Shown: piece after piece, positions 18,532 to 61,715 of the stretch
Numbering within the stretch: position 1 is the first letter of the stretch
Layout: each line of letters starts with the position of its first letter
NCBI RefSeq assembly: GCF_010686685.1
Contig: NZ_JAAGWD010000001.1
Coordinates: forward strand, 62,001-126,000
Length of the DNA stretch: 64,000 nucleotides
DNA from: Pontibacter burrus
Lineage (GTDB): Bacteria > Bacteroidota > Bacteroidia > Cytophagales > Hymenobacteraceae
Reading direction: 5' to 3'
The notes under the pieces: generated by a model
What the model saw: the letters and a program-made list of their open reading frames with translations, nothing else
What the model was told of the DNA's origin: nothing
Databases searched by the model: none
Translations under genes and position numbers: made by a program

Positions 18532-18593
18532 CCGAAACTTTCAGCATAACCCAAAACTAGCTATGCCTTACTAAAGAATTACTTGTATTTAAA

Positions 18594-33496: not shown

Positions 33497-33587
33497 GCTA
33501 AAAGTTTTAGTAAATTTACTATATTGTTATTTTACGATTTAGTATATTTACTATTATCGGAGCGGTTACCACTCCAAAACTTTTAGC
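33497..33587. repeat. 12-bp perfect inverted repeat framing a divergent promoter region
   Basis: gctaaaagtttt at 33497-33508 and its exact complement at 33576-33587 frame the AT-rich region between the leftward protease gene (start 33495) and the rightward RHH gene (start 33597). Each arm lies next to one of the two start codons, so the whole control region is nearly symmetrical. Confidence 0.8.
33508..33553. promoter_or_regulatory. Paired operator-like sites TAGTA-N4-TACTA
   Basis: Site one (33508-33521) is a perfect 14-bp palindrome, tagtaaatttacta; site two (33540-33553) is tagtatatttacta with one mismatch. The starts are 32 bp apart, three helical turns. The same motif in the same pairing and spacing occurs upstream of the terminase operon (48213-48258). 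The sites lie between the divergent head-protease and RHH/tape-measure genes. Confidence 0.6.
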
Positions 33588-33596
33588 CCTTGTTAT

Positions 33597-33827
33597 ATGA
33601 TGTCTGACAACAATGCCTGCAAGCCCAAAGAGCCGCGCGTGCAGATTCGCCTGCTCCCCCAGCTGGAGCGCGAACTCTCGGAACGTGCCCGTGAGCAGGG
33701 TCAAACCCTGAACGCCTTCCTGCGTCCGTTTCTGTATGCTATTGCCCGTAAGGAGATGCGCATGGAAGCGGTGGTAAGTGTAGAGAAGCTGTTACCCCGT
33801 AGTAAAACCCCGGTGCGTCATGGCTAA
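33597..33827 (+). CDS. Ribbon-helix-helix (Arc/CopG-like) DNA-binding protein
   Basis: 76 residues. The pattern strand-turn-helix-helix is visible in RVQIRLLPQLERELSERAREQGQ followed by TLNAFLRPFLYAIARKEM, closely like Arc, where a short strand (FNLRWP) binds the major groove and N-S or N-A sits at the second helix cap. Such dimers bind short inverted half-sites. The gene starts 44 bp from a pair of TAGTA-N4-TACTA sites, so it is a candidate regulator of its own region and of the terminase operon. It overlaps the next gene by eight bases. Confidence 0.7.
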   Translation: MMSDNNACKPKEPRVQIRLLPQLERELSERAREQGQTLNAFLRPFLYAIARKEMRMEAVVSVEKLLPRSKTPVRHG

Positions 33828-34011
33828 CCTCACCGCTCCCGCCTCGAAAGACCTCAAGCAGCTGTGCATGGAAGCTTATGCGCTGGCAAGCTACCTGGTC
33901 AAGAACAACCCCACCGACGAGAAGGCAGCGGGCCTGCTGGGCAGTACCGTTGTGGAGATCAAGCAAATGCAGGAACTGGTAAAGCAGAAGACAGATGAAG
34001 TTACTACATAA
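33820..34011 (+). CDS. Small helical phage protein
   Basis: 63 residues, predicted helical (DLKQLCMEAYALASYLVKN, VVEIKQMQELVKQKTDE), without signal or membrane segment. It overlaps the RHH gene before it and the small membrane protein after it, so it belongs to the plus-strand island ending in the tape measure gene. It could be a tail-assembly helper; no family is recognised. Confidence 0.6.
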   Translation: MANLTAPASKDLKQLCMEAYALASYLVKNNPTDEKAAGLLGSTVVEIKQMQELVKQKTDEVTT

Positions 34012-34177
34012 GATTATCGCTGTTATCGGGTTTTTCTGTATGCTTATAATGGCAGCAACCATCATTCTTTCCCTATGGGGAGACACAACCTTTTGGCTGA
34101 AAATCTTCGGTACTGCTATGGTGGTGTTTATGGTATGTCTGCTGTTGTATGACGACGAAATAGCAGAAGGCCCTTAA
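33995..34177 (+). CDS. Small two-helix membrane protein
   Basis: 60 residues with two hydrophobic helices (IIAVIGFFCMLIMAATIILSL and FGTAMVVFMVCLLLY) and a short acidic end. It overlaps the preceding gene by 17 bases. A membrane protein next to a tape measure gene might assist DNA entry or exclusion, but no function can be assigned. Confidence 0.6.
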   Translation: MKLLHKIIAVIGFFCMLIMAATIILSLWGDTTFWLKIFGTAMVVFMVCLLLYDDEIAEGP

Positions 34178-34233
34178 CTCTCCCACCCCCTCTCACTCAC
34201 CTTTAAACTGCCCTTATCCTTAACACAACTTAC

Positions 34234-37020
34234 ATGAGTGAGAAAAACGAAGTGCTGCTGCGCATCCGCATTGATGAAGCAGAAGCCCAAAAGAAAATCG
34301 TCTCCTACCAAAAGGAGATCAACGCCGCCCGCGATGCCCAGGCCGCCCTTGCCAAAGCCATCAAAGAGGCTGGCAGCGCCACCGATGAACAGGTAGCCCA
34401 GCAGGTCGCCTTAAAAGCCCGGCTCAAAGAGCTGACCACCCAGCAGAATCTGCAGATCAAGGCTATTGACACCCAACGCAAGGCAGATCAGGCAGCAGTA
34501 GGTTCCATCAACCAGCTGCGCGCCCAGCTGGCAAGCCTGACTACCCAGTGGAATGAGCTATCGGAGGAAGAGCGTAACAACGCCGAGATCGGCGGCAAGC
34601 TGCAAAAGGCTACCAAGGACGTAAGCGATAAGCTGAAGGAGCTGGAAGCCTCGGTGGGCGATACGCGCCGCAACGTGGGCAACTACTCGCAGTCCATGCT
34701 CGAAGCCGTGGATGGTTCCGGCAAGTTGCAGCAGGCCATTGACCTGAGCAAAAAAGGCTACGACGAACTGAAAGGCCTGATCACCGATGGTATTGCGGCA
34801 CTGAAAGAAGAAGTGAAAGCCAAGCTCGCTGCCGAAGCTGCCACCAATGCCAAAACAGCTGCCGAAGCCGGCACCACCGCAGCCACTACGGCCAGCACAG
34901 CGGCCACCAACATTTCAAAAGCAGCTATTATCGGCAAGGTAAGCGCCCTGAAGCTACTCAAGCTGGCACTGGCTGCTACGGGTATCGGTGCGGTGCTGCT
35001 CCTGTTGGGCGGGCTCATTTCTTTCCTGACCAGAACGCAGAAGGGAATTGATACGGTAAGCCGCTATACCGCCGCTTTTAGTAAAGTGATGGGGTTCCTG
35101 CTGGATAAACTCTCCGCTGTAGGCGAAGCAACCATTGCCTGGTTCAAGGATGTCAACAACCTGGGCGACTTTTTAAAGAAGCTGGGCAACGAGATCCTGC
35201 AGAACGTGATCAACCGCTTAAAAGGTTTCCTGGTGATCTGGGAGGCTGTAAAGTCAGGCGACTTTACCAAGCTGCAGGATGGCATTACGCAGGTCGCCAC
35301 GGGCATTACCGACGCCTCTGCCAAAGCCAAGGCCTTTGCCAAGGAACTGGCCGATGTGGCACGGGCTGCAGCTGATGTGGAGCGGGAAACTCAGCGCATA
35401 GAAAGGGCTGAAAGAGCGCTGAACGTGGAGCGTGAGCAGGCCAATGCCTTTATTGAGCGCAACAAGATGCTGGCCGAAGATGCCACCAAGAGCGAAGCCG
35501 AGCGCATGGAAGCGGCCCGCAAAGCCTTTGCCAAGGAAGAGGAACTGCGCGGCAAACAACTGCAGCTGCAGCGCGACAAGATCGCCAACCTGATTGCCGA
35601 GCAGAAGCTGACCAACAACCTCAACGCGGATCACGACAAACTGGCCGAAGCGCAGGCCGAGCTTGCCAAGATCGAGGCCGAGAGTTTAGGCAAGTCGACC
35701 GAGCTGCAGAACAAGTTAAACGACCTGCGCAAACAGGCCCAGCAAAAGCAGCTGGAGGCTACGCGCAAACAACTCGAAGCCGAAGCCGCCCTGCTGGAGG
35801 TGCGCACCCAAAGCAGCCTCAACTCGGAAGAGGACCTGCTGGAACTGCGTCTGCAACTCTTAGCTAAGAAACAACAGCAGGAGCTACTTGCCGAAGACCT
35901 GACACAGGCCCAGATCAAGGTGATTAAGGAAAAGTACCTGGCAGAAGAAGCGCAGCTGCGGGACGAGTTCCGGGAAAACCAGCGCAAAAAGGAGCTGGAA
36001 GAAGAAACCCGCACAGCGCAGGCCAGGCTCACCAAGGCGCAACAGGTGCTTGCTATCGGATTCGGCAAGCAACAACTGGCACTGAAACAGCAACGGGCAC
36101 AAGGCTTGCTTTCTGCTGCAGAATATGAGCGCCAGCAGGAGCAACTGACCCTAACGCGCATGCAAAGCGAGATCCTGCTAATGGAGAAACACGCCGGGGC
36201 AGTGGAAGGAATGGATAAGGTGCTGGTTGAGAAGCGCGCTGCACTGGCCGAATACCTGGCTGACAAACAGATCAAGGCAGTAGAGAAAGCTGAAGAAGCC
36301 GATGCTAACGCCCACGCCAAACGTATTGAACGCCAGTTGCAGGAGCTGGAAATGGCAGACAGCTTCCTGAACGCCATGGGTGATATGTTTGCCAACTCCC
36401 TGACCGAACAAGGTTTTGCGATTGAGCAGTTTTCGCAAGGGGTACTGAATCTTCTTATTGACACGGTATCACAAGCGCTGCAAATGCAGGTGGCGGCAAG
36501 TGTTGGTCAAGCTACAGTTGGTGCAATTGCCAGTCCTGAAAGTATTGCAACCGCAGGTGTTGCCGGCGTAGCAAAGGCATTGGCGCTCGTAGCGCTCATA
36601 AAAACAGCTGCATCGGTAGCCAAAGCTGCTATCAGTAATTCTATTTCCAAAGATGGCGGGGGTAAATACTTTGCAGAAGGCGGCTATACAGGTGATGGGT
36701 ACGGTGCCCCTGATAGCTCAGGGCACAAGCCAGCCGGCATCGTGCACGCAGGCGAATATGTGCTCCCCAAGTGGATGGTTAACAGCAATCCTTCGCTGGT
36801 AGCCTCGCTGGAACAACAGCGTCTGCGCGGCTATGCCACCGGGGGCTACGTGCAACCACCCTCTACCCGGCAATGGCTGGGCGGGCAGCACACAGCGCTC
36901 AACTTAGACTACAACCAGTTAGCCCAGGCGATGAGCCGGTTCAAGGTGCAGGCTGCGATTCAGGATATCCGCTCTGCAGATAGCAAGCATACGGCCAAGA
37001 TGAACATTGTCAACCCCTAA
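34234..37020 (+). CDS. Phage tail tape measure protein
   Basis: 928 residues, the longest phage protein here. The N-terminal 600 residues are coiled coil rich in Ala, Glu, Lys and Gln (ARDAQAALAKAIKEAGSATDEQ, RIERAERALNVEREQANAFIER). A hydrophobic patch at about 245-268 (LLKLALAATGIGAVLLLLGGLI) and Gly-rich C-terminal segments (YFAEGGYTGDGYG, GIVHAGEYVLPKWMV) are hallmarks of tape measure proteins, which set tail length and help inject DNA. It is on the plus strand whereas nearly all other structural genes are on the minus strand. Confidence 0.92.
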   Translation: MSEKNEVLLRIRIDEAEAQKKIVSYQKEINAARDAQAALAKAIKEAGSATDEQVAQQVALKARLKELTTQQNLQIKAIDTQRKADQAAVGSINQLRAQLASLTTQWNELSEEERNNAEIGGKLQKATKDVSDKLKELEASVGDTRRNVGNYSQSMLEAVDGSGKLQQAIDLSKKGYDELKGLITDGIAALKEEVKAKLAAEAATNAKTAAEAGTTAATTASTAATNISKAAIIGKVSALKLLKLALAATGIGAVLLLLGGLISFLTRTQKGIDTVSRYTAAFSKVMGFLLDKLSAVGEATIAWFKDVNNLGDFLKKLGNEILQNVINRLKGFLVIWEAVKSGDFTKLQDGITQVATGITDASAKAKAFAKELADVARAAADVERETQRIERAERALNVEREQANAFIERNKMLAEDATKSEAERMEAARKAFAKEEELRGKQLQLQRDKIANLIAEQKLTNNLNADHDKLAEAQAELAKIEAESLGKSTELQNKLNDLRKQAQQKQLEATRKQLEAEAALLEVRTQSSLNSEEDLLELRLQLLAKKQQQELLAEDLTQAQIKVIKEKYLAEEAQLRDEFRENQRKKELEEETRTAQARLTKAQQVLAIGFGKQQLALKQQRAQGLLSAAEYERQQEQLTLTRMQSEILLMEKHAGAVEGMDKVLVEKRAALAEYLADKQIKAVEKAEEADANAHAKRIERQLQELEMADSFLNAMGDMFANSLTEQGFAIEQFSQGVLNLLIDTVSQALQMQVAASVGQATVGAIASPESIATAGVAGVAKALALVALIKTAASVAKAAISNSISKDGGGKYFAEGGYTGDGYGAPDSSGHKPAGIVHAGEYVLPKWMVNSNPSLVASLEQQRLRGYATGGYVQPPSTRQWLGGQHTALNLDYNQLAQAMSRFKVQAAIQDIRSADSKHTAKMNIVNP

Positions 37021-37057
37021 ATACAAAAGGCTCTCATAATCGAGAGCCTTTTGTATT
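37020..37057. terminator. Bidirectional terminator between tape measure and DUF4468 genes
   Basis: A perfect 16-bp stem (aatacaaaaggctctc and complement) with a six-base loop. Its arms overlap the stop codons of both convergent genes. It closes the plus-strand island. Confidence 0.9.
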
Positions 37058-37601
37058 ACCAGTCGGCACTTGTTGGTGTGCCCATTATCATTTTAATGCG
37101 TTGTATTTCATCTGTAACAGCCTTCTCTATTGCTTCTTTATGGGCCGTGCTTAGGTTCTGGTGTGCCAGTCCCAACGGTTTTAAATTACCGTTCGGGAAG
37201 TAATGTTTTTCTGGCACGGGTTGCATAAAGGTAGATTCTTCCAGGGGAACCAAGCCTTTAATTCTTTTCTCCTCAATAAGGAAATCGGTTATCGAATACA
37301 TATAGCGCCCATCTTTCTGTTGGAGAATCACACTATACTTAAGTTGTAGCGCAAGCCGGGTAGTATTGGTTGCAACCATCAGTTGCTTGCTGTCCTGCCA
37401 GGCAACTGCATTGCTTTCCTGTTTTATCACTTCCTTAGCCGAAGGTGTTATTGCTTTGACAGCTCTGGCATATAGTTCCGCTTGTGCCCCTTCCACCGGC
37501 ACCACTTCACTGTAGACGATCTTGTTATCAATGCGCGGCAGCTCCTGGGCAAGGGCCAGGACCGGCAAAAAGGCAAGCAGCAGGGAGAGTAATGTTTTCA
37601 T
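37056..37601 (-). CDS. DUF4468-like exported protein, probable moron gene
   Basis: 181 residues with a clear signal peptide (MKTLLSLLLAFLPVLALAQ). The mature part follows the DUF4468 pattern (KIVYSEVVPVEGAQAELYARAVKAI, LQLKYSVILQQKDGRYMYSITDFLIE), a periplasmic domain common in Bacteroidota. It stands alone between a terminator and a 150-bp gap inside the tail module, so it is probably an acquired gene that is not part of the virion, perhaps serving the lysogen. Confidence 0.75.
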   Translation of the reverse strand: MKTLLSLLLAFLPVLALAQELPRIDNKIVYSEVVPVEGAQAELYARAVKAITPSAKEVIKQESNAVAWQDSKQLMVATNTTRLALQLKYSVILQQKDGRYMYSITDFLIEEKRIKGLVPLEESTFMQPVPEKHYFPNGNLKPLGLAHQNLSTAHKEAIEKAVTDEIQRIKMIMGTPTSADW

Positions 37602-37751
37602 GTGGAAAGGGTTTTTGCCGTAAGTATACGTAAATTTCTATATAGGGTGCAAAAAGAAAAACCACCCCGTAACAGAGTGGCTTCTTTCTTCCCGCCTCCC
37701 CAGGCCCTTTATCCCTTGGGTTTATGATGGAACATAACAGGCGGGTATGCT

Positions 37752-39716
37752 TTACAAGCGCCACAGCTGGCACTCGGTCGGGCCCTGGCCGGTGAACTCT
37801 GATATTTGGTTCAGGTAAAAATAGCTTTGGTGCTCTTCCAGCCAGATTGGAATGCTTGGGTCATAGCCGGCCACATCGGTTACATCGAGCAGCAGCCGCG
37901 GCGTGATGCCCTTAGCCTTGTCCAGCACGCCCTGCAGCGCCTTATAGCGGGTGGGTAGCAGGGTTTGAAACGAAATAGGGTTAAACTGTAGTTTACAGGT
38001 GGTGCGGATAATCGCATAGCTTTTAGTCTTCCAAATGCTTACCTCTGCCTGCTCCCCTAGCACGGCCATGCGTGGCTCTACTTTCTTCGTATCGTAGTAA
38101 TAAAATTCTTGCTCCAGCAGCACCCATCCATCAGGCTGCGGCGCTCTGTCTTTTACGTACTCATATAGTCCCCATCCTCTCGGCACGTCTGCATCCCCCG
38201 ATGCATTCTTAACCCATACTTTATCTTTATCATTCAGGCTTAAGCTGTTACGGGTGGTAATAGTATCAGTGGCAACATCGTAGTTGCTTGGTGTAAGTTC
38301 CTTCCTGCTGTAAAAAGGAATACGGATACCCCCGTTTGTTTCTTCTGACGCTGCAAAAGGCAGCTCTACAATGTTCTTTTCCTGTTCAAGTTGCGTATTG
38401 TCTACAGTTAAAAAGTGATCACCGTCCCCTCCTAGCTCATCTTTTTTGTAGCGAAACCAGCTCTTTTGTGCAAACTCACCGAACTTGTATTGAACTGGTA
38501 CAACCCCGTTATACACTAATTTATCCGTCCAATCATAGGCGAGCACCTTATTTTCTTCCAGCTTGTTAAAAGGGGTAAAGGTCAGCGTGTTGCTATAGGA
38601 GTCAAAGTGCACTATTAAATCAAACAGAGCGCGGATGGCTTTAATGAGATCCTTTTGTTTGATATCCGGCAGATTCAAGGCCGTATTCCATTCAGTGTTA
38701 AAATAAGCCTCCTGCTCATATTTAGATGTAATGGTGTAATAGTTGTAAGTTGAATTACCCACCGTGTCGCCTCCTGCTGGTATGAGGTTGGTACGAATCG
38801 TCCACACTTCCAGTCCAGCCAGATCCATTGTTGGGTGTATCTTAAACCTGGCATTTAACTTTGTAAGCCCCAGTGTAGTAACCGGCACTTCCTGCACATC
38901 CAACCATACTCCATTCCTTCTGAGGTATACCCCGATAGAAGAAGCCTGCGCTTCTGAGATAAAAGCCGCATCTACTTCTACTGTTACGTTCAACACTCCC
39001 GGATCATGCACCGGGATAGCTGCGGTGTTGTTTAGCCTCGTGTCCATTTCAACAATGCGGGCATTTATCCAGTCTTCTGTATGCAGTGGCTTTTCGTTAG
39101 AAAAAGGCAACACCAGTTTATCCCACAGCTCATCCGGGATACCGTTATAGTTTACCCCGGCCTCCTGCAGTATCTGCTCGAACACAGTGCGGGTAAACAC
39201 ACTCGGGAACAGATCCTCTGCCCATGCCGAAGCAGCATCAAACGGCTTACCCGTATCGTAAGGCGCGTAGATATAACCGTGCTCAGGTGTTCTCCAGCTA
39301 GAAGCTCCAGCCACTACCTGTTCAAAATCCCACGCATGGTCAAACCTACTCAAATCCAGGTCGCGGATGCTCTTATCGCCCAGGCGTTCAAACAAATCCA
39401 CCGCACCCGAAAACAGGTCCACCTCGTAGCCCTCGGCTCCCGCACCCAGCAGGTAGGCTTTGGGCAAAGGCAACACTTCCACCCCATCGTGCAGGGCCTG
39501 CGCCTCCAGCACCCGGTAAGGCACGGGCGAGAGGCTGCTCACCTGCCGGGCATTGCCGGTCAGGCGGTGGTTGCGCTCGGTATAAGGCAGCGTGAGCGTG
39601 TTGGAATACGAGCTCTGCACCGTATCGGGCCGCGTGATGTCGTTGGATTGCACCGTCACCGCAAACACCGTGTCGGGTGCCAGGTCGGCTTTCTCGCCGT
39701 TCAAGTAGAGTTCCAT
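37752..39716 (-). CDS. Large phage tail or baseplate protein
   Basis: 654 residues, beta-rich, with no signal peptide. The N-terminus MELYLNGEKADLAPDTVFAV and the segment TVQSSYSNTLTLPYTERNHR recur in Bacteroidota prophage tail genes. The middle has DIKQKDLIKAIRALFDLIVHFD and TLTFTPFNKLEENKVLAYDW, which resemble tail-hub proteins. It shares one base with the preceding gene (TGATG). A hub or tail-tip role is likely but not proven. Confidence 0.65.
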   Translation of the reverse strand: MELYLNGEKADLAPDTVFAVTVQSNDITRPDTVQSSYSNTLTLPYTERNHRLTGNARQVSSLSPVPYRVLEAQALHDGVEVLPLPKAYLLGAGAEGYEVDLFSGAVDLFERLGDKSIRDLDLSRFDHAWDFEQVVAGASSWRTPEHGYIYAPYDTGKPFDAASAWAEDLFPSVFTRTVFEQILQEAGVNYNGIPDELWDKLVLPFSNEKPLHTEDWINARIVEMDTRLNNTAAIPVHDPGVLNVTVEVDAAFISEAQASSIGVYLRRNGVWLDVQEVPVTTLGLTKLNARFKIHPTMDLAGLEVWTIRTNLIPAGGDTVGNSTYNYYTITSKYEQEAYFNTEWNTALNLPDIKQKDLIKAIRALFDLIVHFDSYSNTLTFTPFNKLEENKVLAYDWTDKLVYNGVVPVQYKFGEFAQKSWFRYKKDELGGDGDHFLTVDNTQLEQEKNIVELPFAASEETNGGIRIPFYSRKELTPSNYDVATDTITTRNSLSLNDKDKVWVKNASGDADVPRGWGLYEYVKDRAPQPDGWVLLEQEFYYYDTKKVEPRMAVLGEQAEVSIWKTKSYAIIRTTCKLQFNPISFQTLLPTRYKALQGVLDKAKGITPRLLLDVTDVAGYDPSIPIWLEEHQSYFYLNQISEFTGQGPTECQLWRL

Positions 39717-40618
39717 CAGTTTCTCAGCGTGTTTAGCGGTGCTTTCACTACTTCCACCACCAGGTCATAGCTCGTTCTACCCAACGGCATCGGGGCCAGG
39801 TTCGCCGGCTGCACGTACACTTCCTCTGTGCTCCCATCCGGATGGTGTATCCAGACTTTAGGCGACGTATAGAGCTGCCACAGGGCCGTGTAACGGTTAT
39901 AGTTCAGGCCACTGGTACGCAGCACCATGCCCGGGTTGCCTGCTTTGGAGGCGGCGGCTTTCAGGCCATTGGCAAGGGTATACTCGCCACTGGCTTCCGA
40001 AGTGAAGGGTTTGTCCACCTTGCCCGTAAAGTGCCAGGTGTCGATGCCGCCCAAACTGTTGTACCAGCGCAGGCACACGCCATCTGCGCAGGGCAGCACG
40101 TCAATCACCTTTACTTCGGTAAAGGCTTTGGGCGCATAGGTGCAACTACCGTCATCCTGCACCGCGTCCGGGTTGTAGTTCTGGGCTTCCGGATCCATGC
40201 AGCCGCGCACGACGTAGCCGCAAAGCGTGCTGTTCACTTCGATCACCGCCCCCCAGCGTTCGCCGCCACTGCCGTTTGCCACAACCTGTTGCCGCGTAGT
40301 GCCGTTGCAGTCATCGCGCAGGTAGGTGCCGTCCGGCAACACGTAGCCGCAGTCTGCCGAGTTGGCTTTCTGTTGCGTGGTAAAGCCGCCAGTGCCATCG
40401 TGGTAGTAGCCGGTTTCAGTCGTTCCCGAACAGGTGAAGTGAAAGCGATCTGAGGCGGGGCGGCTGTAGTCTTCCGGCGCAAAGCCTTCGGCAAAGGCCA
40501 GGCCCGACACGTCGCTGTAGTCCACCTCGCCTGAGCTCGTGTTGTAATCCCAGCGCTGGCGGCGGTACAGGTTGCCGCCCTGGGGGGTGAAGGTTTCTTT
40601 TAGCTTTATCATGACCAT
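39716..40618 (-). CDS. Cys-rich tail or fibre protein with TSP3-like motif
   Basis: 300 residues. The centre carries GCMDPEAQNYNPDAVQDDGS followed by Cys, the short Asp- and Cys-rich calcium-type motif known from Bacteroidota surface proteins. Before it are two related strand-Cys units (CGYVLPDGTYLRDDCNGTT and TLCGYVVRGC), reminiscent of DUF5977-like adhesive repeats. The remainder is beta-rich and ends NYNRYTALWQLYTSP. It probably forms part of the tail tip or fibre that meets the host surface. Confidence 0.65.
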   Translation of the reverse strand: MVMIKLKETFTPQGGNLYRRQRWDYNTSSGEVDYSDVSGLAFAEGFAPEDYSRPASDRFHFTCSGTTETGYYHDGTGGFTTQQKANSADCGYVLPDGTYLRDDCNGTTRQQVVANGSGGERWGAVIEVNSTLCGYVVRGCMDPEAQNYNPDAVQDDGSCTYAPKAFTEVKVIDVLPCADGVCLRWYNSLGGIDTWHFTGKVDKPFTSEASGEYTLANGLKAAASKAGNPGMVLRTSGLNYNRYTALWQLYTSPKVWIHHPDGSTEEVYVQPANLAPMPLGRTSYDLVVEVVKAPLNTLRN

Positions 40619-40722
40619 AGGGTTTTAACTATAGCATTATACATATGGCTTTCCCAGACCCACACCTGGGGCAGGGCAGGGGCCGTGAGCAGGCGGCGCA
40701 GGGTGTAGAGGAAAGGGTTCAT
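40609..40722 (-). CDS. Possible 37-residue phage protein
   Basis: The start at 40722 (MNPFLYTLRRLLTAP) lies four bases after the preceding stop, and the frame ends inside the next start region with a 10-base overlap. It carries ALPQVWVWESHMYNAIVKTL. The tight packing supports translation; otherwise nothing is recognised. Confidence 0.4.
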   Translation of the reverse strand: MNPFLYTLRRLLTAPALPQVWVWESHMYNAIVKTLWS

Positions 40723-40726
40723 CCGA

Positions 40727-41212
40727 TCAGGTTGTAAAGGTTTCCACGTAGCGTAATTCCGGTAATTTTTCCAGGTCCGCAGGGGCCAGTAAATGGGCAT
40801 CTTTGCGCCCTAAGCACAGCCCCACGTACTCGGAGCAGAACAAGCCCGGCCATAATCTAACACCGTCTTTGCCGTTCCAGTCATGGCCGATCAAGAGCCA
40901 CTTTCTTCGGACAATGTGCAGCCCGAACTGTAGCAGGTCTAAAAAGCCATAGCCCCCGTGCACCGGCACGTCTACTAAGGGCACAAGCGGTTCATAGACT
41001 TTTACCTGCCTTCTTTTCATGGCTTTCCACTGCTCAAAGTCTGTCTCTTTATAGCCCGAGCCTACCAGCTCCTGCACCTTGCCATCTACTAAAATAGCGG
41101 CGTGGTTGGGGCCGTAGGTCAGCATGCGGATCAGCAGGCTCAGCACTGATAAGAAATTCCACTCCCAGTAGTTAGAGATCAGCAGGATTCTCGGTTGTTC
41201 CATGATAGTCAT
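40727..41212 (-). CDS. Permuted papain-fold (YiiX/NlpC-P60-like) hydrolase in the tail module
   Basis: 161 residues. An early His in YGPNHAAILVDGKVQELVGSG and a late Cys in GLFCSEYVGLCLG give the circularly permuted order of YiiX-type NlpC/P60 enzymes, where CSE[LY]V is the nucleophile motif. Members cleave peptidoglycan cross-links, amide bonds or lipid esters. In a tail gene cluster it could locally open the host wall during DNA entry. It overlaps the preceding gene by up to 41 bases, so a start at the second Met (41203) is possible. Confidence 0.65.
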   Translation of the reverse strand: MTIMEQPRILLISNYWEWNFLSVLSLLIRMLTYGPNHAAILVDGKVQELVGSGYKETDFEQWKAMKRRQVKVYEPLVPLVDVPVHGGYGFLDLLQFGLHIVRRKWLLIGHDWNGKDGVRLWPGLFCSEYVGLCLGRKDAHLLAPADLEKLPELRYVETFTT

Positions 41213-41678
41213 AAGTTGGCAGGGCGTTCACATCCTCTAAAGCATTGCGGTTGCCTTGTGCATCAAAAAAGCGGTTGTGCGGGTGGCCTAAAAAGCCGCT
41301 CCCTTCGTAAGCCCCGCCCGCTGCCAGGATGTTTAAGATGTTCTTTTCCAGTTGCGACCTTAACTGGTCAAAGAAGAACTGCGCTTCATCGCCCCTTGTG
41401 TTCTCACTTATCACTCTACTAAAGGAAGGCGACAATAACCCGGTCGGGGTAAACTGGTCGTCGTAGAATTCAGTTCTAATAGTGATATTACCCTCCCGGT
41501 CGCTTTCCACGTGCAGCGATTTAAAGGTGAGCTTGCGCTGCTGCCCTGAAAAGCTATCCGCTTCCTGTGGAATTAATTGAATGGGCAGCCAGTTGCCCTG
41601 TTCGTCTTTGCCGAACTGGGCGGTGTAGTGCTTTGCCTCACCTTGGGCATTGGTTCTGGTAAATTGCTCTTGTGCCAT
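41172..41678 (-). CDS. Hypothetical phage tail-region protein
   Basis: 168 residues with strand-rich sequence such as GNWLPIQLIPQEADSFSGQQ and NITIRTEFYDDQFTPTGLLS, then a helical part (DEAQFFFDQLRSQLEKNILN). It lies two bases after the propeller-like gene and overlaps the hydrolase gene. Unrecognised; probably a minor tail protein. Confidence 0.55.
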   Translation of the reverse strand: MAQEQFTRTNAQGEAKHYTAQFGKDEQGNWLPIQLIPQEADSFSGQQRKLTFKSLHVESDREGNITIRTEFYDDQFTPTGLLSPSFSRVISENTRGDEAQFFFDQLRSQLEKNILNILAAGGAYEGSGFLGHPHNRFFDAQGNRNALEDVNALPTYDYHGTTENPADL

Positions 41679-41680
41679 AA

Positions 41681-42481
41681 TTATGCGTAGCGTATGGTAA
41701 CTTTGTAAAGATTCCCTGCTTGGGAAAGGGCGTAAAATTCTTTTCCTCTAAATATCACGCCGAACATCGGCTCGCTCACCTTTTCATCGAGCAGCACCCG
41801 GTTGGCTGAAAATAGTTTCAACCCCGGGTTGACGCCGCGCATGGCAAAGAGGATCAGTCCATTTACCCCCCAGGCATGCCGCCCTTGCACACCATAGATG
41901 CCGCCTCCTTTGTTAAAAAAAGTCAGGGAATTTCCAAACTGTCCTGTTGGAATATGATAGGGCAAAAACAAGGGACCTATGCTGAAGTAGATGGTATCTC
42001 CCACTATGGAGAGGCAAGTTGTCTGAGAGGTGTTTGACTGATTTAGATCGGCTGTAAGCACTCCAGCTGCGTCGTATACCCGTGCACCATAGGGGTTGAA
42101 ATTGGAGGCTATATAGTATCGTCCTGTCCTATACACGGCATCCTGAGAAAAATTAACGCTCCCAAACTGCCGCGTCACCGCAAACGTAGCAGGATGCAAC
42201 ACGCTTACCTTCGCAGCAGAAGCATAATTGCCAATACAAAGCTCATCTCCCAACATTTTTACCCAGTGCGGGGCGCCGCCAACCGAAATCACGTCCAGTG
42301 CTTGCCGCGTGTTTACATCATAGCGGTGCAGCTTGCCTGTAGTATCTACCGCAACCAACACCTCACCGATATATTCTAATCCGCGATAATCTCCCCCTGA
42401 AGGGAAAGTGTGTATGATTTGCGCGCCAAACCCAACGGGTGTCTGTTTCTTCAGCACCGATTGATAATACCCTCCTATCAT
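41681..42481 (-). CDS. Beta-propeller-like phage tail protein
   Basis: 266 residues with repeated blade-like strands: GLEYIGEVLVAVDTTGKLHRYD, HWVKMLGDELCIGNYASAAKV, VYRTGRYYIASNFNPYGARVYD and TCLSIVGDTIYFSIGPLFL. The spacing of about 40 residues suggests five or six blades. No signal peptide. Its position between fibre genes suggests a receptor- or carbohydrate-binding part of the tail. It overlaps the upstream gene by four bases. Confidence 0.6.
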   Translation of the reverse strand: MIGGYYQSVLKKQTPVGFGAQIIHTFPSGGDYRGLEYIGEVLVAVDTTGKLHRYDVNTRQALDVISVGGAPHWVKMLGDELCIGNYASAAKVSVLHPATFAVTRQFGSVNFSQDAVYRTGRYYIASNFNPYGARVYDAAGVLTADLNQSNTSQTTCLSIVGDTIYFSIGPLFLPYHIPTGQFGNSLTFFNKGGGIYGVQGRHAWGVNGLILFAMRGVNPGLKLFSANRVLLDEKVSEPMFGVIFRGKEFYALSQAGNLYKVTIRYA

Positions 42482-43197
42482 ACCGGTTGTGTTATGGTGT
42501 AGAACTTATTATTCGCGTCAATGTAGTGCAGGCGGATCACGTTCTTCTTGCCACTCGTTGCATCAAAAGCGCCGCCGTTCTCATTCAGCCAGCCACTCCC
42601 TACACTCACGGTGTTGGTGCCGTTGCCCGTTACCAGCACCGTTAAGGTGGTATCGAGCAGATTACCGCTTGCCGCATGGTTGAGCACATGGTTGGCCGAA
42701 AAGGCATCGCCGGTGCCGCCCAGCTTCATCACTTTGTTCGCGTCAAAGGTGTTGGTGGCCGCAAACGGAGTCAGCGCGGTGGGCTTGAGTTTATCCAGTG
42801 CTTCCTTCACCACTTTATTCTGAACAGGATTGGTACTGGTAGCGCTTAGTTCAGCATCAACTGTAATGGAGCTGCCACCAGCCGTATCCTCAAACACCAA
42901 CTTCCAATTGGCATCATCTGCCACCGGCTCTGCAGCGGACTCATGATCTGTCAGGCATTGCCAAAACTTATTACCATCCAAAGAGATCGCTATCCAACCG
43001 GCTTTGAACGCTCCAGCTCTCCAGGTGCCAAAGTAGAAATCAGAACCGCCCCCTTTGCTTTGTAGCCACAACTGCAGCTCCTGAAAGGTCTTATAACTCA
43101 GCTTGCCTGACGTGCCATCACGAAATGGCAGCTGATCGGCATCAGCAGCTTCGGGTTTGTGCACAAACTGGTGTACCTGTTTTTTCTCTATAGCCAT
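42478..43197 (-). CDS. Tail fibre protein
   Basis: 239 residues. The segment ELSATSTNPVQNKVVKEALD is a well-known fibre motif of Bacteroidota phages, the transition between the trimerising stalk and the distal domain. Before it are HKPEAADADQLPFRDGTSGKL and a Trp-rich module (FGTWRAGAFKAGWIAISL). The distal part is Asn/Gly/Thr-rich and ends in strands (KNVIRLHYIDANNKFYTI). It shares one base with the upstream gene. Confidence 0.75.
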   Translation of the reverse strand: MAIEKKQVHQFVHKPEAADADQLPFRDGTSGKLSYKTFQELQLWLQSKGGGSDFYFGTWRAGAFKAGWIAISLDGNKFWQCLTDHESAAEPVADDANWKLVFEDTAGGSSITVDAELSATSTNPVQNKVVKEALDKLKPTALTPFAATNTFDANKVMKLGGTGDAFSANHVLNHAASGNLLDTTLTVLVTGNGTNTVSVGSGWLNENGGAFDATSGKKNVIRLHYIDANNKFYTITQPV

Positions 43198-43847
43198 TAT
43201 TCGATTATCAATGCGTTATCAAAATCACTTACAAAACTGCCGTCACTATCTATCCAGTAGATGCCGTCTGCCAGCTCATCTAAGGTGTCGCGGTACTGGT
43301 TGGTCAGGCACAGGTTAATATAGCGCGTCCCTGCCATCGGCTCCGGCACGTGCACGTTAAAGCCTGTGAGCTGCTGGCGGTCTGCTACCACATCCGAGCG
43401 GATGCCCAGCACATTACCCAGCGAGTCGCGGTATTCGCGCTCCAGGTAGATGGTCTGCAATGTGGCCCCGATGTTGAGGCTTAGCTGCACCGGATAGCCA
43501 TCCACTAACACCGGACGCTCCATGTCCGTAGCAAAGCGTACTGCTTCGGCAGCCGGTGTTATAACAACCGGCACAGGGTCTGCTTCGGTGGCCCGGTGCT
43601 CGTTGCGCACACAGGCTTGTATCGTCGCGGTGCCAACCGGCAACGGCCCTGTTTCGGTTAAGAGCAGCAAGCCACGGCCAACGATCAGCGTCGCGCGTAT
43701 AGCCAAAAGCGAACCGGCTGCATCCAGGTACACCCGCTCAAAGTACAGCGGCTGGCTTACCTGCTGCGAGATGGCAATAGCCAAACTTAGCGGGTAGCCT
43801 TCACGCAGCACCGGGCGCTGCAGATCGGTGGCAAACAGGGCGCTCAA
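43197..43847 (-). CDS. Phage structural protein with an internal duplication
   Basis: 216 residues made of two related halves. Half one (about 4-92) starts FATDLQRPVLREGYPLSL and half two (about 104-196) FATDMERPVLVDGYPVQL. Each continues with a strand pair ending [FL]ER[VE]Y.D..G..L.IR and closes near C-[VL]-[RT]-N-[EQ]-[HY]-R. Each half is probably an Ig-like or tail-type beta domain. The family is unrecognised; its position among fibre genes suggests a baseplate or fibre-anchoring role. Confidence 0.6.
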   Translation of the reverse strand: MSALFATDLQRPVLREGYPLSLAIAISQQVSQPLYFERVYLDAAGSLLAIRATLIVGRGLLLLTETGPLPVGTATIQACVRNEHRATEADPVPVVITPAAEAVRFATDMERPVLVDGYPVQLSLNIGATLQTIYLEREYRDSLGNVLGIRSDVVADRQQLTGFNVHVPEPMAGTRYINLCLTNQYRDTLDELADGIYWIDSDGSFVSDFDNALIIE

Positions 43848-44227
43848 ATCGTGTAGCCTGAATAGTCTGAGGTGCCCACCGGCAGCGCTGCCGCCACCGC
43901 AAACCGCACGTTCACACTGTCATCCAGCACTGTGCCTTCCGCATCTTCAAAGGTGCAGTAGTAGGCCACAGACGAGCCTTCCGCAGGCTCTACCAGTTCG
44001 GTACCTGCTGGTATCGTGAGCTGCATCTGTGCCCGCAGAAAGCTGCTCACATCGAGCGTGGCAATACCTTCGCGGGTGCTGGCTTTCAGTTCCGAGAGCT
44101 GCGTGCCATCTTCGCGGTAGAGTGTAGCCTTCACGTAGGAAGAAGCCGTTGCGATGCGGTACACCACCGGATTAGGGAAACGCCCGCCCACGGCTGCGTA
44201 AGTGGCTGGTCTTTCTTCGATGGTCAT
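43844..44227 (-). CDS. Hypothetical phage structural protein
   Basis: 127 residues, strand-rich (VVYRIATASSYVKATLYRED, EGIATLDVSSFLRAQMQLTI, SVAYYCTFEDAEGTVLDDSV), like a single Ig-like domain. It overlaps its neighbours on both sides by four bases, so it is tightly coupled in the tail operon. No family is recognised. Confidence 0.58.
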   Translation of the reverse strand: MTIEERPATYAAVGGRFPNPVVYRIATASSYVKATLYREDGTQLSELKASTREGIATLDVSSFLRAQMQLTIPAGTELVEPAEGSSVAYYCTFEDAEGTVLDDSVNVRFAVAAALPVGTSDYSGYTI

Positions 44228-44394
44228 TGCTGCTTAATTGGCAAAAAACAGATCCCGTAAATAAAGCTGCTGCTATTGCCTTTTATCCGGATGCGGGTTT
44301 CGTCAAGTATTTCCGATACTTCTACTAGTCCTTGCGCGCCCTGTACCATATCCCCTACTTTAAGGCTTTTGGTGCTTATTGCTTTGGCTTTCAT
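44224..44394 (-). CDS. Overlooked 56-residue phage protein
   Basis: An ATG frame (MKAKAISTKSLKVGDMVQGA, then GLVEVSEILDETRIRIKG, ending FLPIKQQ) exactly fills the 170-bp gap between two tail genes and ends in an ATGA overlap with the next start (44227). The strand pattern VGDMVQG-VEVSEI-TRIRIKG resembles a small SH3-like barrel. Position and coupling make it a credible gene. Confidence 0.65.
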   Translation of the reverse strand: MKAKAISTKSLKVGDMVQGAQGLVEVSEILDETRIRIKGNSSSFIYGICFLPIKQQ

Positions 44395-44398
44395 ACTT

Positions 44399-44626
44399 CT
44401 ATCTCTTTCTGATAAACACCGGTTCTACCTTATAAGCGACTAGCTTTTTGCTGCACATAGGCGCTCGTTCTAAATCCACATAAAACAACTCACCTGATTT
44501 AAACGCGTGATCCAAAGTAGCATCCAGGTAATGTCGCGCGTACTCATTTATAGCCTGTTCCAGTTCCGGAGTAAGGGCTACTTCAGGGCCTAGCTTTGAT
44601 TTAAAGAACTCTGATGTGTCTATCAT
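44399..44626 (-). CDS. Hypothetical small phage protein
   Basis: 75 residues (MIDTSEFFKSKLGPEVALTP, EQAINEYARHYLDATLDHAF), helical with a basic end. It overlaps the preceding gene by four bases (ATGA). No family recognised; probable minor tail protein. Confidence 0.58.
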   Translation of the reverse strand: MIDTSEFFKSKLGPEVALTPELEQAINEYARHYLDATLDHAFKSGELFYVDLERAPMCSKKLVAYKVEPVFIRKR

Positions 44627-45132
44627 GCTTCTATCGTTTCGAGTAAAAACCCGGCTACTTCAGCGGCATAGGCTTCGGTCAGCATGGCTTCCACGTTGGT
44701 TAATAACTTCTCGTTTATGATCTCCGAGATCACGCCGGTCGGCTGTCCGGTGCGCCACGGCTTGGAGCCTTCCTGGTGTATCTTGCGGGAGATAAAATAA
44801 GCCAGTGTGCTCTCATCAATGGGCAGGCCGCGCTTATCCTGCCCACGCGGCTCAATGCCTTCCTCCCGGATGTATTCCAGCACATAGCGCCTAACGGCCC
44901 CATCCCCCGGATTCACCGTAGGCCCTCTGCCGGTTTCGTACGTCCAGATATACTCACCCCCTACCAGCCGGAACTCTTCCTCGTCCAGTTCATAGCGCAC
45001 AGAGGCCGCCATCTTCTCGCGCTGCGAGGCGGGTAGGTACTGGCCCGTGTCCATCGTTGAGATGTTGTAGGCGACCTGCTCTACCAGCTGCTTGCCCAAG
45101 CGGTCGAGCTTTAACTTCGAGGCTAGGAGCAT
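44623..45132 (-). CDS. Hypothetical phage tail-completion or neck protein
   Basis: 169 residues. A helical N-terminus (LKLDRLGKQLVEQVAYNIST) is followed by a strand-loop region (LVGGEYIWTYETGRGPTVNP) and SKPWRTGQPTGVISEIINEKL. The pattern of an N-terminal helix plus a GRxP loop resembles HK97 gp10-type neck or tail proteins, but the match is loose. Confidence 0.55.
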   Translation of the reverse strand: MLLASKLKLDRLGKQLVEQVAYNISTMDTGQYLPASQREKMAASVRYELDEEEFRLVGGEYIWTYETGRGPTVNPGDGAVRRYVLEYIREEGIEPRGQDKRGLPIDESTLAYFISRKIHQEGSKPWRTGQPTGVISEIINEKLLTNVEAMLTEAYAAEVAGFLLETIEA

Positions 45133-45539
45133 AGGCTGTTCGGCAGTTTAAGCGTGAACTCGCATGCCCAGCCCATCAGCTTGTGGCCGGTAAAGTTTTC
45201 GACCGGGTAATCGTTGCACATCACTTCACCTACTTCCTCTTCCTCCAGCGCCAGCAGGAACCGGGCAGACAGCTTTTCCATGCGGTGCAATAGTGCGCCT
45301 TTCTCTGCCTCGCTCAAATCGTGCCCCTGGTCAAAGAAGCCGATGGTAATTGAGGCGTTCTTTATAGCAGTTGCCACGTTGCGGTTGCCTTTGATCGGAT
45401 CTAAATGGATAACCGGAAAGCCGTGTTCTTCCACCGCTTCTTTCAGGCTCACATCCGAGCCGCAGTGAAAGTGGCCGCTGCCGTTCAGTACCTGCTCGGC
45501 TACAGTGCCCAGGAGTGATTCTAGTTCGGTGTAGGTCAT
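45123..45539 (-). CDS. Hypothetical phage protein, possible tail terminator
   Basis: About 138 residues from the start at 45539 (MTYTELESLLGTVAEQVLNG), chosen because its ATGA overlaps the preceding stop; an upstream Met at 45602 would lie wholly inside the preceding gene. The pattern of a leading helix, then FPVIHLDPIKGN, SITIGFFDQGHD and a C-terminal strand (MGWACEFTLKLPN) is compatible with a tail-terminator fold. Unproven. Confidence 0.6.
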   Translation of the reverse strand: MTYTELESLLGTVAEQVLNGSGHFHCGSDVSLKEAVEEHGFPVIHLDPIKGNRNVATAIKNASITIGFFDQGHDLSEAEKGALLHRMEKLSARFLLALEEEEVGEVMCNDYPVENFTGHKLMGWACEFTLKLPNSLCS

Positions 45540-46267
45540 TGCTTTTCGCTTAAAATCTTGTGGTACTTCTCTTCGTATTCGCCTCGCTCGGTGTCGATGC
45601 ACAGCGCCTGGTAAAAGGCGTAGGCGGGTGTATCTAAGACTGCCTCCTGATCTGCCGGCACATGCCCTGCCTTGTTGAGCAGCGTAGGCAGAAAGCCGTA
45701 CTTTTCAAACTTCCCAATCCCGGCCATCAGCTGCTCTTCGGTCGGCTCTTTGGCAAGAATGGGCTTATAGCGCTCGATCAGCCGCTCGTTCTCGCTCAGG
45801 ATGTGCGCCAGTGCGCCGACTGTTTCCGTAACCGGCAGGGCTTTGGCCTTTTCCACCAGCGGAGCCGGAAAGCCAGCCCCACTGATTGCCAGCAGGCGGT
45901 TGTACTGCTCCGGCCAGGCATACACGGCGTACAGGTACGGGTAGGCTTGCTCGGACTGGACGGCATGCTCCCGCAGGTAATGGCGGCAGAGTTCGAGTTT
46001 GCCCACGTTATCCTGCCCCAGATCAAGCATCAGCCACGCGGGCTTGTGTCCGGATGGTTCAGAGGCTAAAAGCATTTGAGCGGCTTCTAACAGCGTCGTT
46101 ACCTGCTCCCCTGCCTGCTGCAATTCGCCGGTACTCAAACCGGTCAGCACGCTTACCGCTTCGGTATCGGATTCAGCTAAGAGCACCTGCAGGTATTCGC
46201 CCAGCGTGACTTCGTGCCACTGGGTTTTACAGGTGCGCTTTTCTCCGTTCAGCGTGTAGCGTATCAT
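45536..46267 (-). CDS. Hypothetical phage protein downstream of terminase
   Basis: 243 residues, mostly helical (EVTLGEYLQVLLAESDTEAV, LLEAAQMLLASEPSGHKPAW, EYEEKYHKILSEKQ). The beginning (MIRYTLNGEKRTCKTQWHEV) and helical body recall tail-assembly chaperone-like proteins of Bacteroidota prophages. It overlaps terL and the next gene by four bases each. No frameshift signal was seen. Confidence 0.58.
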   Translation of the reverse strand: MIRYTLNGEKRTCKTQWHEVTLGEYLQVLLAESDTEAVSVLTGLSTGELQQAGEQVTTLLEAAQMLLASEPSGHKPAWLMLDLGQDNVGKLELCRHYLREHAVQSEQAYPYLYAVYAWPEQYNRLLAISGAGFPAPLVEKAKALPVTETVGALAHILSENERLIERYKPILAKEPTEEQLMAGIGKFEKYGFLPTLLNKAGHVPADQEAVLDTPAYAFYQALCIDTERGEYEEKYHKILSEKQ

Positions 46268-47727
46268 CGGCGTACCGTTTTGGCTTTTATGCGTTTTACT
46301 GGTTGGTGTATTCTGTTCACAGCCTGCACCAAATCATCCACCATATCATCATGGGCTGCAAGCGGGAATGCCGCGCACTGGCCTAAAAAGTTATCGTTCC
46401 AGCTGCCATCAATCAGCACCACACGCCCAGCTTCCACAAAAGGCGCAATGCCGTTCACGCGGGTTACCTTGTCTACTTCCGGCGTAGGCGCTTCTACGAT
46501 GTTGAGCGAGGTTTCCCGCTTCAGCGTTTGTATCGTGCTCTTACCCGAGGCTTTCGGCTCGATGTGCAGCTTGCTCAGGTTACTATAGCCGTTGCGCTTC
46601 ACAAAGGCCGGGAGCTCTTTAATCAGCTCCGGGAACTCCAGCCAGGCTTCCTGCACATCCCGGATGTAGAGTGTTGGTTCGATGTAACACGAGGCCATCA
46701 TGGCTGTCGGGTCGTTCTTCTGGTCTTTGGTGTAAGCGGTATCGGCATCGAAATGCCAGATCACCTGCCTGCCCAGTGTGCGCTTTTGAAACTCTTCCCA
46801 GCCAATCCTGCCGAACCAGGCTTTCTTCAATTTCCCGCCCCCGTCTGGTGTGGGTGTCTGCCCAATCTGCCCCGCATAGCCATAGCTGCCCAGGTCTTCC
46901 TTGAGCTTATCGAGTGCGGACCTGTCGAGCCTGTTGGCATCCAGCAGACCATTGACATAGTATTGGCGCACACGCTCCGGCTTTACCTGCTCTGAAAGCT
47001 CTCCCGGCAGGCAGATATGGTTGATGCTCTTTTTCTTCTTGAGCCAGTCTCCTGTCGGGTCCAGCTCATGCAGGCGCTGCATCACCATGATCGTTACCGT
47101 GCGCTTCTTGTTGGTCTTTCGGGTAGAAAGCGTTGTGCCTGAAAAGCGGTTGGCCGTCTCCCGGGCTTTCGCACTCTCGGCTTCTTCCGGATTGATCGGG
47201 TCATCGTTTATAATGAAGTCCCCGTGCATCCCAGTTACCCTACCCCCTGTTGAGGTAGTAAAGCGTTCTCCCTTGCGGGTATTTTTAAAGGCGGACTTGC
47301 CGTCGCTGTCCTTTTTAAATTCAATCAGCCCCGGGTAAAAGGCTTGAAACTTGTCTGACTTCAAACAGTCCCGTGTCTTCACCGCATGGGCAATGCTCAG
47401 GTCTGCCGCATAACTCGACGAGATCAGGCGGATGCTAGGGTCTTTCACCCAGAGCCAGGCCGGAAAGAGCTGCGTGACAATCGTGGACTTGGACGACCCA
47501 GGCGGCACGTTGATAATCACATCATCCTGCGGCAGGCCTTTTGCCCACGTCTCGTATACTTTCTGCAGCTCGTCGCAGATAAAGCGGATGTGCCAGTTAG
47601 GCACCAGCTCCACGGCTTCTATCGTGTCCCAGAACTCGAGAAAGAACTCATAGAACGAAGCCTTGCACAACGCCGCGTTTATGGCCGTATCAAAGCTGCT
47701 GCGGCTTTCTTCCATACTTGAGCTCAT
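46264..47727 (-). CDS. Phage terminase large subunit
   Basis: 487 residues. The ATPase half has Walker A VPPGSSKST (about 74-82) and the following LFPAWLWVKDPSIRLISSSY typical of TerL; the region DFIINDDPINPEEAES gives the Walker B/coupling segment. The nuclease half begins near WHFDADTAYTKDQKNDPTAM with candidate acidic residues and ends AAHDDMVDDLVQAV. It pumps DNA into the prohead and cuts concatemers. It overlaps terS by 38 bases. Confidence 0.93.
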   Translation of the reverse strand: MSSSMEESRSSFDTAINAALCKASFYEFFLEFWDTIEAVELVPNWHIRFICDELQKVYETWAKGLPQDDVIINVPPGSSKSTIVTQLFPAWLWVKDPSIRLISSSYAADLSIAHAVKTRDCLKSDKFQAFYPGLIEFKKDSDGKSAFKNTRKGERFTTSTGGRVTGMHGDFIINDDPINPEEAESAKARETANRFSGTTLSTRKTNKKRTVTIMVMQRLHELDPTGDWLKKKKSINHICLPGELSEQVKPERVRQYYVNGLLDANRLDRSALDKLKEDLGSYGYAGQIGQTPTPDGGGKLKKAWFGRIGWEEFQKRTLGRQVIWHFDADTAYTKDQKNDPTAMMASCYIEPTLYIRDVQEAWLEFPELIKELPAFVKRNGYSNLSKLHIEPKASGKSTIQTLKRETSLNIVEAPTPEVDKVTRVNGIAPFVEAGRVVLIDGSWNDNFLGQCAAFPLAAHDDMVDDLVQAVNRIHQPVKRIKAKTVRR

Positions 47728-48211
47728 ATAACTCTTCGTAGCTCAGGTGGCTCAGGTCCTGCTGCTTGGTTTCTATATCTCCTTTGATCTCCTGCTTGTC
47801 AGCAAGCCCCAGATCACGGGCAATGATACTGGCGTTAAAGAATCCTGCTGCTGCCCCTGAAAACTTCTGATTGTAAATAACTTCACGTATGCGCGTAATG
47901 ACCTCCATAAAATCTTCGGCATCCTTGTTATTATCTTCGAAGTTGGTGAAGAACTGCGTACTACAATCTAGGTAGATACAGAGCCCGTGTATGGTATAAG
48001 GGCGCGGCTTTGCCAGCGGCTCGCGCATTAACTTCTCCCCTATGCCGTTAATTTTTATCTTCTCGATATTATCCTCTTGATAAGGATTCTCATCACACCA
48101 CTCAAAATATTCACAGGCAGCTTTCCACAGCAGCTCAGGCGAGGCAAAGAGCTTGTCTCTACCATGCTTGCTTCTAAGCTTCCAGAACTGGTTTCCTTTG
48201 GGTGCTGCCAT
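47690..48211 (-). CDS. Phage terminase small subunit
   Basis: 173 residues beginning MAAPKGNQFWKLRSKHGRDK, the typical start of this DNA-packaging family, followed by helical DNA-binding segments (PELLWKAACEYFEWCDENPY, TIHGLCIYLDCSTQFFTNFE) and ADKQEIKGDIETKQQDLSHL. It recognises the packaging site and recruits TerL. Its promoter region carries the paired TAGTA-N4-TACTA sites. Confidence 0.83.
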   Translation of the reverse strand: MAAPKGNQFWKLRSKHGRDKLFASPELLWKAACEYFEWCDENPYQEDNIEKIKINGIGEKLMREPLAKPRPYTIHGLCIYLDCSTQFFTNFEDNNKDAEDFMEVITRIREVIYNQKFSGAAAGFFNASIIARDLGLADKQEIKGDIETKQQDLSHLSYEELYELKYGRKPQQL

Positions 48212-48212
48212 T

Positions 48213-48258
48213 TAGTAAAACTACTATATTCTCTTTAACAAATATAGTAAAATTACGA
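48213..48258 (-). promoter_or_regulatory. Terminase operon control region with paired TAGTA-N4-TACTA sites
   Basis: Two sites, tagta-aaac-tacta (48213-48226) and tagta-aaat-tacga (48245-48258), start 32 bp apart, the same motif and spacing as at 33508-33553. On the minus strand TAtaTTTG (48246-48239) is an exact -7 element, with TTG 22 bp upstream (48271-48269); the second site overlaps the -7 element. This is the probable late promoter of terS-terL and the tail operon. Confidence 0.6.
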
Positions 48259-61365: not shown

Positions 61366-61367
61366 AA

Positions 61368-61592
61368 CTAAGCTGCGTTAGATTTGATTGCAAGTGTTTT
61401 TATCCGGTTTTGCTTTAGCTGTTTTTGGTGTTCGTCTGCCAGCTTTAACACTTCCGTCCAGATACCCTTTTCGGTACGCTCATTATTAACCACATCATAA
61501 ATGTGATTTAGACTTTTGCCTGTACGCTCTCTTAGAATCGGTCCGTACTTCTCTGGCATCAAGTCGCGCATTTTTGGTTGATTCCTTGTCAT
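61368..61592 (-). CDS. Cro-like small protein at the head of the early operon
   Basis: 74 residues. RDLMPEKYGPILRERTGKSL then NHIYDVVNNERTEKGIWTEV reads as a compact helical DNA-binding domain, although no canonical HTH score can be computed here. It is the first gene divergent from the CI-type repressor, the place of Cro, and ends two bases before the antirepressor gene. Confidence 0.6.
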   Translation of the reverse strand: MTRNQPKMRDLMPEKYGPILRERTGKSLNHIYDVVNNERTEKGIWTEVLKLADEHQKQLKQNRIKTLAIKSNAA

Positions 61593-61638
61593 TGTGTTGT
61601 TATTTAATTTATATTCGCTTGTTGCGTTGTTGGTATTT

Positions 61639-61671: not shown

Positions 61672-61715
61672 CTTTTGAGTAAATATTTTAAACAATTATT
61701 TCAAATAAATTATAA

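Follow-up and report, generated by a model that had tools for sequence, protein, structure and literature searches.

In a 64,000-nucleotide stretch of the Pontibacter burrus genome (contig NZ_JAAGWD010000001.1, positions 62,001 to 126,000; hereafter the window), the palindrome TAGTA-N4-TACTA occurs as two pairs that are very likely operators common to the late promoters of a prophage. Pair A spans the divergent promoter between the head protease gene and the genes for a small ribbon-helix-helix (RHH) protein and the tail tape measure, and pair B spans the promoter of terS, the gene for the terminase small subunit. The best reading, which we hold with rather more confidence than doubt, is that these are late-operon operators of an autoregulating repressor, the RHH protein.

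The motif, its positions and its spacing had been proposed in a sequence-only reading, and direct reading together with a search confirmed them (Table 1). Site starts lie 32 bp apart in both pairs, and 43 bases separate the last site of pair A from the start of the RHH open reading frame (ORF) at 33597. The divergent region carries extended copies of the motif, TTTAGTAAATTTACTAT and TTTAGTATATTTACTAT. The genes said to be linked by the sites also proved to be what they had been taken for, as PHROG and Pfam matches identify the head protease, the tape measure and the terminase.

The pairs stand out clearly from background. With at most one mismatch, the window contains five matches to the motif against 1.29 expected, and its 26.2-64 kb portion five against 0.48; the fifth of these, at 52068, is a single site inside a methyltransferase gene. 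None of 500 first-order Markov resamplings of the 26.2-64 kb portion yielded a pair at any spacing from 14 to 59. Across 204 genomes of the host family, a 32-bp pair with at most two mismatches was found in these two places only, and the backwards control pattern matched once, in G162. Exact single sites are at chance level in the 4.3-Mb host genome, with 8 places versus 11 for the control pattern.

We also ran an unbiased scan for any motif pair recurring at equal spacing at least 1.5 kb away. It covered the window from 25 kb onward plus 46 loci of relatives, 47 stretches in all (two short loci were skipped). Between 25 and 64 kb of the window, the TAGTA pair was the sole case. The plausible regulatory cases over all stretches were this pair, one pair in L079 (genome G112) and one in L108 (G063), and three resamplings of each stretch gave zero cases. 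Other matches were judged not regulatory, namely coding duplications in L109, low complexity in L112 and a second match in L079.

An exact pair was present in four of 2.9 million viral contigs, one of which is the same prophage. The matches in L006 and L007 were discarded as TAGTAC-type low-complexity stretches. The last, L009, is an unrelated AT-rich phage contig (32% GC) that carries TAGTAATAATACTA twice at 43-88, near the contig start and upstream of a scaffold-like ORF and a major head gene. This one ordinary pair, and the chance-level frequency of single sites in the host genome, could be taken to mean that the pairs arose by chance in AT-rich intergenic DNA; however, given that the resamplings contained no pair and that two equally spaced pairs were found here only among the 204 genomes, we regard such an origin as extremely improbable.

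The position of pair B with respect to the putative terS promoter points to the sign of the control. The exact -7 element previously noted at the second terS site is there: TATATTTG, which agrees at every position with the Bacteroidota -7 consensus, shares two bases with the site at 48245 and is preceded by TTG at 22 bases on the minus strand. A weaker second candidate, TAGTTTTA, lies inside the start-proximal site, and the divergent region offers only 5-of-6 matches. One site of the terS pair touches the -7 box and the other lies one base before the start codon, so that the pair would lie across and downstream of the box. Because it would cover the core promoter with either -7 candidate, this arrangement would favor repression.

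In principle, the palindromes might act as hairpins in leader RNA, or the terS pair might be part of a packaging recognition site. Each putative leader contains one site, and sequences close to terS often are packaging sites. The hairpins, however, are predicted at -2.1 kcal/mol, at most slightly more stable than those of shuffled sequences (z of -0.19 and -1.01), and a packaging site leaves the second pair, 15 kb off, unexplained, which makes this alternative very unlikely. Separately, we note that the entire divergent region is flanked by a 12-bp inverted repeat without mismatches, GCTAAAAGTTTT / AAAACTTTTAGC, with one arm in the protease leader (33497-33508) and the other in the RHH leader (33576-33587).

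The identity of the RHH gene, which had been proposed from the letters, gained support. The 76-amino-acid product passes the cut-off of the Pfam family HicB (PF05534; 24.3 bits, cut-off 21), and falls below that of RHH_1 (13.8 bits, cut-off 20.5). A single-sequence monomer model, with a mean predicted local distance difference test score (pLDDT) of 69, shows the two helices of an RHH fold (residues 21-33 and 38-50) and no strand. In a Foldseek search, the top solved folds were mostly RHH proteins (Arc, CopG, VapB), with expectation (E) values of 0.36 or worse, and two weak PHROG matches are named Arc-like repressor. Single-sequence searches with this protein gave no match in phage records, only the same prophage among viral contigs and one weak match among genomes. 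A HicAB toxin-antitoxin assignment was considered and dropped, as the next two ORFs (33820 and 33995) match no Pfam family. Adjacent ORFs reading like HicA and HicB do occur at 15706-16336 of L109, in a phage that also carries an RHH gene.

A five-row profile gave 22 RHH matches in 16 of the 204 family genomes. Fifteen of these 22, all five profile rows included, have a head protease gene as their immediate divergent neighbor. The RHH/protease gaps measure 73-126 bp. Of the other seven matches, one (G101) shares a short contig with matches to terminase and tape measure; five belong to G116, where they form two clusters that have tape-measure matches nearby and no protease match; and one (G162) showed no phage match within the 3.1 kb that was visible. 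Judging from this gene order, the head protease promoter recurrently has an RHH gene as its partner. (A protease search matched 383 of 390 genomes, mostly what we read as cellular ClpP.)

The gaps between RHH and protease genes in relatives contain repeat arrays. In a period test on 13 relatives and the window (G119 was left out), the best lag among 7-15 upstream of the RHH gene was 11 bp in ten of the 13 relatives and 10 bp in G040. Shuffles as good at lag 11 numbered at most 6 of 300 for nine relatives and 16 of 300 for G099; the arrays of G130 and G034a are identical and not independent. In six arrays (L109, L147, L148, L150, L151 and L152), CCGG recurs four times at an 11-bp period upstream of RHH genes whose products have the N-terminus ME[LV]xP. 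Three CCGG at this period were found 12 times in 1,321,272 bases of relatives' loci (some of which overlap), always within the six arrays and never in nine other RHH upstream regions; the counts for periods of 8, 9, 10, 12, 13 and 14 were 0, 1, 0, 2, 0 and 0. The RHH protein of G116, 67% identical to that of G115 over the matched stretch, begins instead with MHVSP and sits beside a TGC-based array, a combination of different N-terminus and different array that is expected if the beta-strand reads the array. This is good comparative evidence that each RHH protein of the relatives recognizes the array next to its own gene. From the first to the last unit, the four-copy arrays measure 33 bp, and the palindromes of the window are 32 bp apart; we infer that the window pair represents the two ends of such an array.

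On balance, the RHH protein is somewhat more likely than not to bind the TAGTA sites. Both pairs would tie late promoters together, the divergent promoter of the head and RHH/tape-measure genes with the packaging/tail promoter at terS, and the neighboring RHH protein would be the most likely binder, as a repressor that also controls its own gene. Each 14-bp palindrome could accommodate one or two RHH dimers; once both sites are filled, or bridged by a short cooperative filament, RNA polymerase would be kept off three late transcripts together. A low level of the protein would keep the late genes quiet in the lysogen and, since the RHH gene lies upstream of the tape measure on the same strand, the protein would damp late expression through feedback. 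We infer here the binding, its regulatory sign, the extent of the operons, where the promoters lie and the timing. In the early control region (60589-62408), an S24-type repressor gene diverges from a KilA-N/ANT antirepressor gene; the gap between these two genes has no TAGTA-N4-TACTA match with up to two mismatches, and we count this in favor of an RHH-operated late switch. At 61679 in this region there is a two-mismatch match to one 14-base word overlapping a TAGTA site.

Several observations weigh against such a role of the RHH protein. No TAGTA pair occurs in the relatives' loci L070-L102, and the other 203 family genomes lack the pair even with up to two mismatches allowed, so the conservation in related prophages that the sequence-only reading had looked to is absent. 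The terminase was located in 8 of the 14 other protease-divergent RHH loci (G034b, G040, G045, G099, G115, G116, G130 and G200), and none of the eight has a second operator copy at terS. An 11-bp period is missing upstream of the window's RHH gene, where 188 of 300 shuffles scored at least as well, and likewise in G048 and G034b. The near-palindrome GGAGCGGTTACCACTCC is closer to the RHH start than the TAGTA pair is, the Foldseek E-values of the model, whose mean pLDDT is 69, are weak, and L009, where the RHH profile matches nothing at E 1, has the same-spaced pair before head genes, although this may be due to chance. Of the switch as first proposed, then, the sites are real, the pairs non-random and their location at late promoters sound, and conservation in relatives failed; its RHH component is strengthened by the RHH genes and arrays of relatives, with binding to TAGTA a probable extrapolation.

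The search for a second RHH operator copy elsewhere in 13 relatives returned nothing above resampled background besides the array and its own overlaps, the best other matches equaling the resampled maximum in G099, G115, G034a and G048. G002, the closest relative by terS and terL (58% and 73%), falls outside the set of RHH genomes and lacks a TAGTA pair. With no copy in the eight RHH relatives or in G002, the terS copy appears peculiar to this prophage in our sample. Upstream of terS in G002 (L070, ~2440-2495), inverted AAATAGTTA / TAACTATTT arms occur a few dozen bases apart.

Linking of promoters by paired sites does recur with other letters. G112, G063 and G012 carry tandem CGTGRCGCTTTTG / GGCGTTTTG-like sites, with a spacing of 20-21 bp, ahead of both terS and genes of the tail block. 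In G112, a pair with 20-bp spacing is common to the terS and tape-measure promoters; in G063, a 21-bp pair is common to terS and the block of the homologue of the 39716 gene; in G012, a similar 20-bp pair precedes the tape measure and a degenerate copy precedes terS (the G012 pairs were spotted by eye and by word matches, the unbiased scan having missed them). As in the window, a fixed-spacing motif pair is thus common to terS and tail-block promoters; unlike in the window, the sites are direct repeats of another motif, and none of the three genomes has an RHH profile match. A helix-turn-helix regulator just upstream of terS was considered, but candidates were below cut-offs in G063 and G112 and absent in G012, and we do not claim one. 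Elsewhere, at ~17545 of L107 (= ~1547 of L170), TGTCTATAGACA-like palindromes are repeated 22-23 bp apart.

These pairs bear on two other explanations. One is that another phage or host regulator binds the TAGTA pairs and the RHH protein controls only its own promoter, through GGAGCGGTTACCACTCC. The existence of linked terS and tail promoters in genomes with no RHH profile match speaks for this, as do the lack of an RHH array copy at terS in relatives and the presence in G045, G200 and G048 of a 17-bp palindrome starting 32-36 bases before the RHH start (38 in the window). However, shuffling produced equally good palindromes 23 times in 200 for the window, 18 times for G200, 11 times for G048 and once for G045, and the family scans made, which did not cover every small ORF, recognized no other regulator in the late region. 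We consider this explanation unlikely, if still worth keeping in mind. The other is that the pairs belong to a phage late promoter or serve a late activator, whereby one factor switches on both late blocks. The tandem CGTGRCGCTTTTG-like sites seem to lie upstream of core promoters, and activation is known among RHH proteins besides repression, as described for AmrZ (PMC3325190). In the window, by contrast, one site abuts the putative -7 box and the other lies one base from the terS start codon, a placement that suits a repressor better, and we find this second explanation distinctly improbable.

Repression by the RHH protein has a precedent. According to the report on SvtR (PMC5569661), this small RHH protein, encoded by an archaeal virus, is a repressor of its own gene whose strongest binding is at the promoter of a virion structural gene, the expression of which it is thought to delay; together with the promoter geometry, this is our ground for suggesting repression. 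Unlike SvtR, which acts on archaeal promoters, the protein of the window would target head, tape-measure and packaging genes. The antitoxin RelB is another RHH protein whose dimers read a palindrome, the 12-bp TTGTAATTACAA, similar in kind to TAGTAAATTTACTA. In that study (PMC2812701), the halves of the operator, relO, must be adjacent: two added bases between them abolish repression and ten in-phase bases fail to restore it, implying that a spacing of 32 bp does not fit classical cooperativity, a further point against the RHH reading. Unlike for RelB, no toxin partner was recognized in the window.

Arc of phage P22, also a phage-coded RHH repressor and the top-ranked fold match of our model, is a less direct parallel: it controls antirepressor synthesis in the immunity region, not late structural genes, and the fold and family E-values of the window protein are not significant. 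We found no report in the open-access literature of an RHH late-gene switch in a Bacteroidota phage, and late-gene control in these phages appears to be little studied. The RHH/head-protease/tape-measure neighborhood would offer a small, testable regulator family with naturally recoded operators, and the contrast between ME[LV]xP proteins with CCGG arrays and the MHVSP protein with another array could be useful for understanding how RHH proteins choose DNA. It is also a candidate for how such prophages keep their particle genes silent. A bolder proposal, which we offer as speculation with little expectation that it holds in full, is that Hymenobacteraceae phages share a late switch in which an RHH protein, encoded before the tape measure, represses its own gene and the divergent head block through a four-dimer array, whose letters are rewritten along with the beta-strand. 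This prophage would have recruited terS as well and kept strong sites at just the first and last positions of the array, and replicating genomes would titrate the repressor, releasing the late genes together.

In our reading, the prophage (51% GC) starts at ~26.2 kb, after a queuosine-synthesis gene, and extends past the end of the window; an ORF at C11:126226-127119 reads like a tyrosine recombinase, hence a putative integrase. The plus-strand RHH ORF and tape measure are sandwiched by two minus-strand late blocks (Table 1). The capsid candidate is 77% identical to the protein in the same place of a Rufibacter latericius phage contig, and searches of viral and genome contigs matched only this prophage and that contig.

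Table 1. Sites and genes of the window, and tandem site pairs in loci of relatives
Feature	Position	Strand	Basis
Major capsid protein candidate	31219..32232	-	weak PHROG match to virion structural protein
Head maturation protease, ClpP-like; first gene of head block	32248..33495	-	phrog_94 E 1.1e-45, PF00574
Pair A site 1, palindrome TAGTAAATTTACTA, exact	33508..33521		direct reading and search
Pair A site 2, palindrome TAGTATATTTACTA, exact	33540..33553		direct reading and search
17-bp near-palindrome GGAGCGGTTACCACTCC, alternative RHH operator, 21 bases before RHH start codon	33559..33575		palindrome search
RHH protein, 76 amino acids, putative repressor	33597..33827	+	HicB score, model and fold search, synteny
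63-amino-acid ORF between RHH and tape measure	33820..34011	+	no Pfam match
60-amino-acid ORF between RHH and tape measure	33995..34177	+	no Pfam match
Tail tape-measure protein, same direction as RHH	34234..37020	+	phrog_24 E 7.8e-20
Terminase large subunit (terL)	46264..47727	-	phrog_38 E 4.5e-86
Terminase small subunit (terS); first gene of packaging/tail block	47690..48211	-	phrog_606 E 9.2e-50, PF16677
Pair B site 1, palindrome TAGTAAAACTACTA, exact	48213..48226		direct reading and search
Putative terS promoter core TATATTTG, exact; overlaps site at 48245	48239..48246	-	match to Bacteroidota -7 consensus
Pair B site 2, palindrome TAGTAAAATTACGA, 1 mismatch, last half TACGA	48245..48258		direct reading and search
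Tandem pairs of relatives	L079 ~1390-1425 and 17916-17950; L108 ~8676-8710 and 16693-16727; L110 ~2138-2172 and 18516-18548

The prophage also carries two DNA methyltransferase genes (49502-50359 and 51304-53067). In relatives, the protease leaders of G040, G099, G055, G200 and others contain TTTGTTGCAC followed by a ~17-bp palindrome before the protease start, and partial copies of this unit occur elsewhere in the G055, G099, G200 and G025 loci. In G063 (L108, 2850-3095), the place between tape measure and protease that the RHH gene takes in others is occupied by an 82-amino-acid ORF with weak helix-turn-helix matches, below cut-offs.

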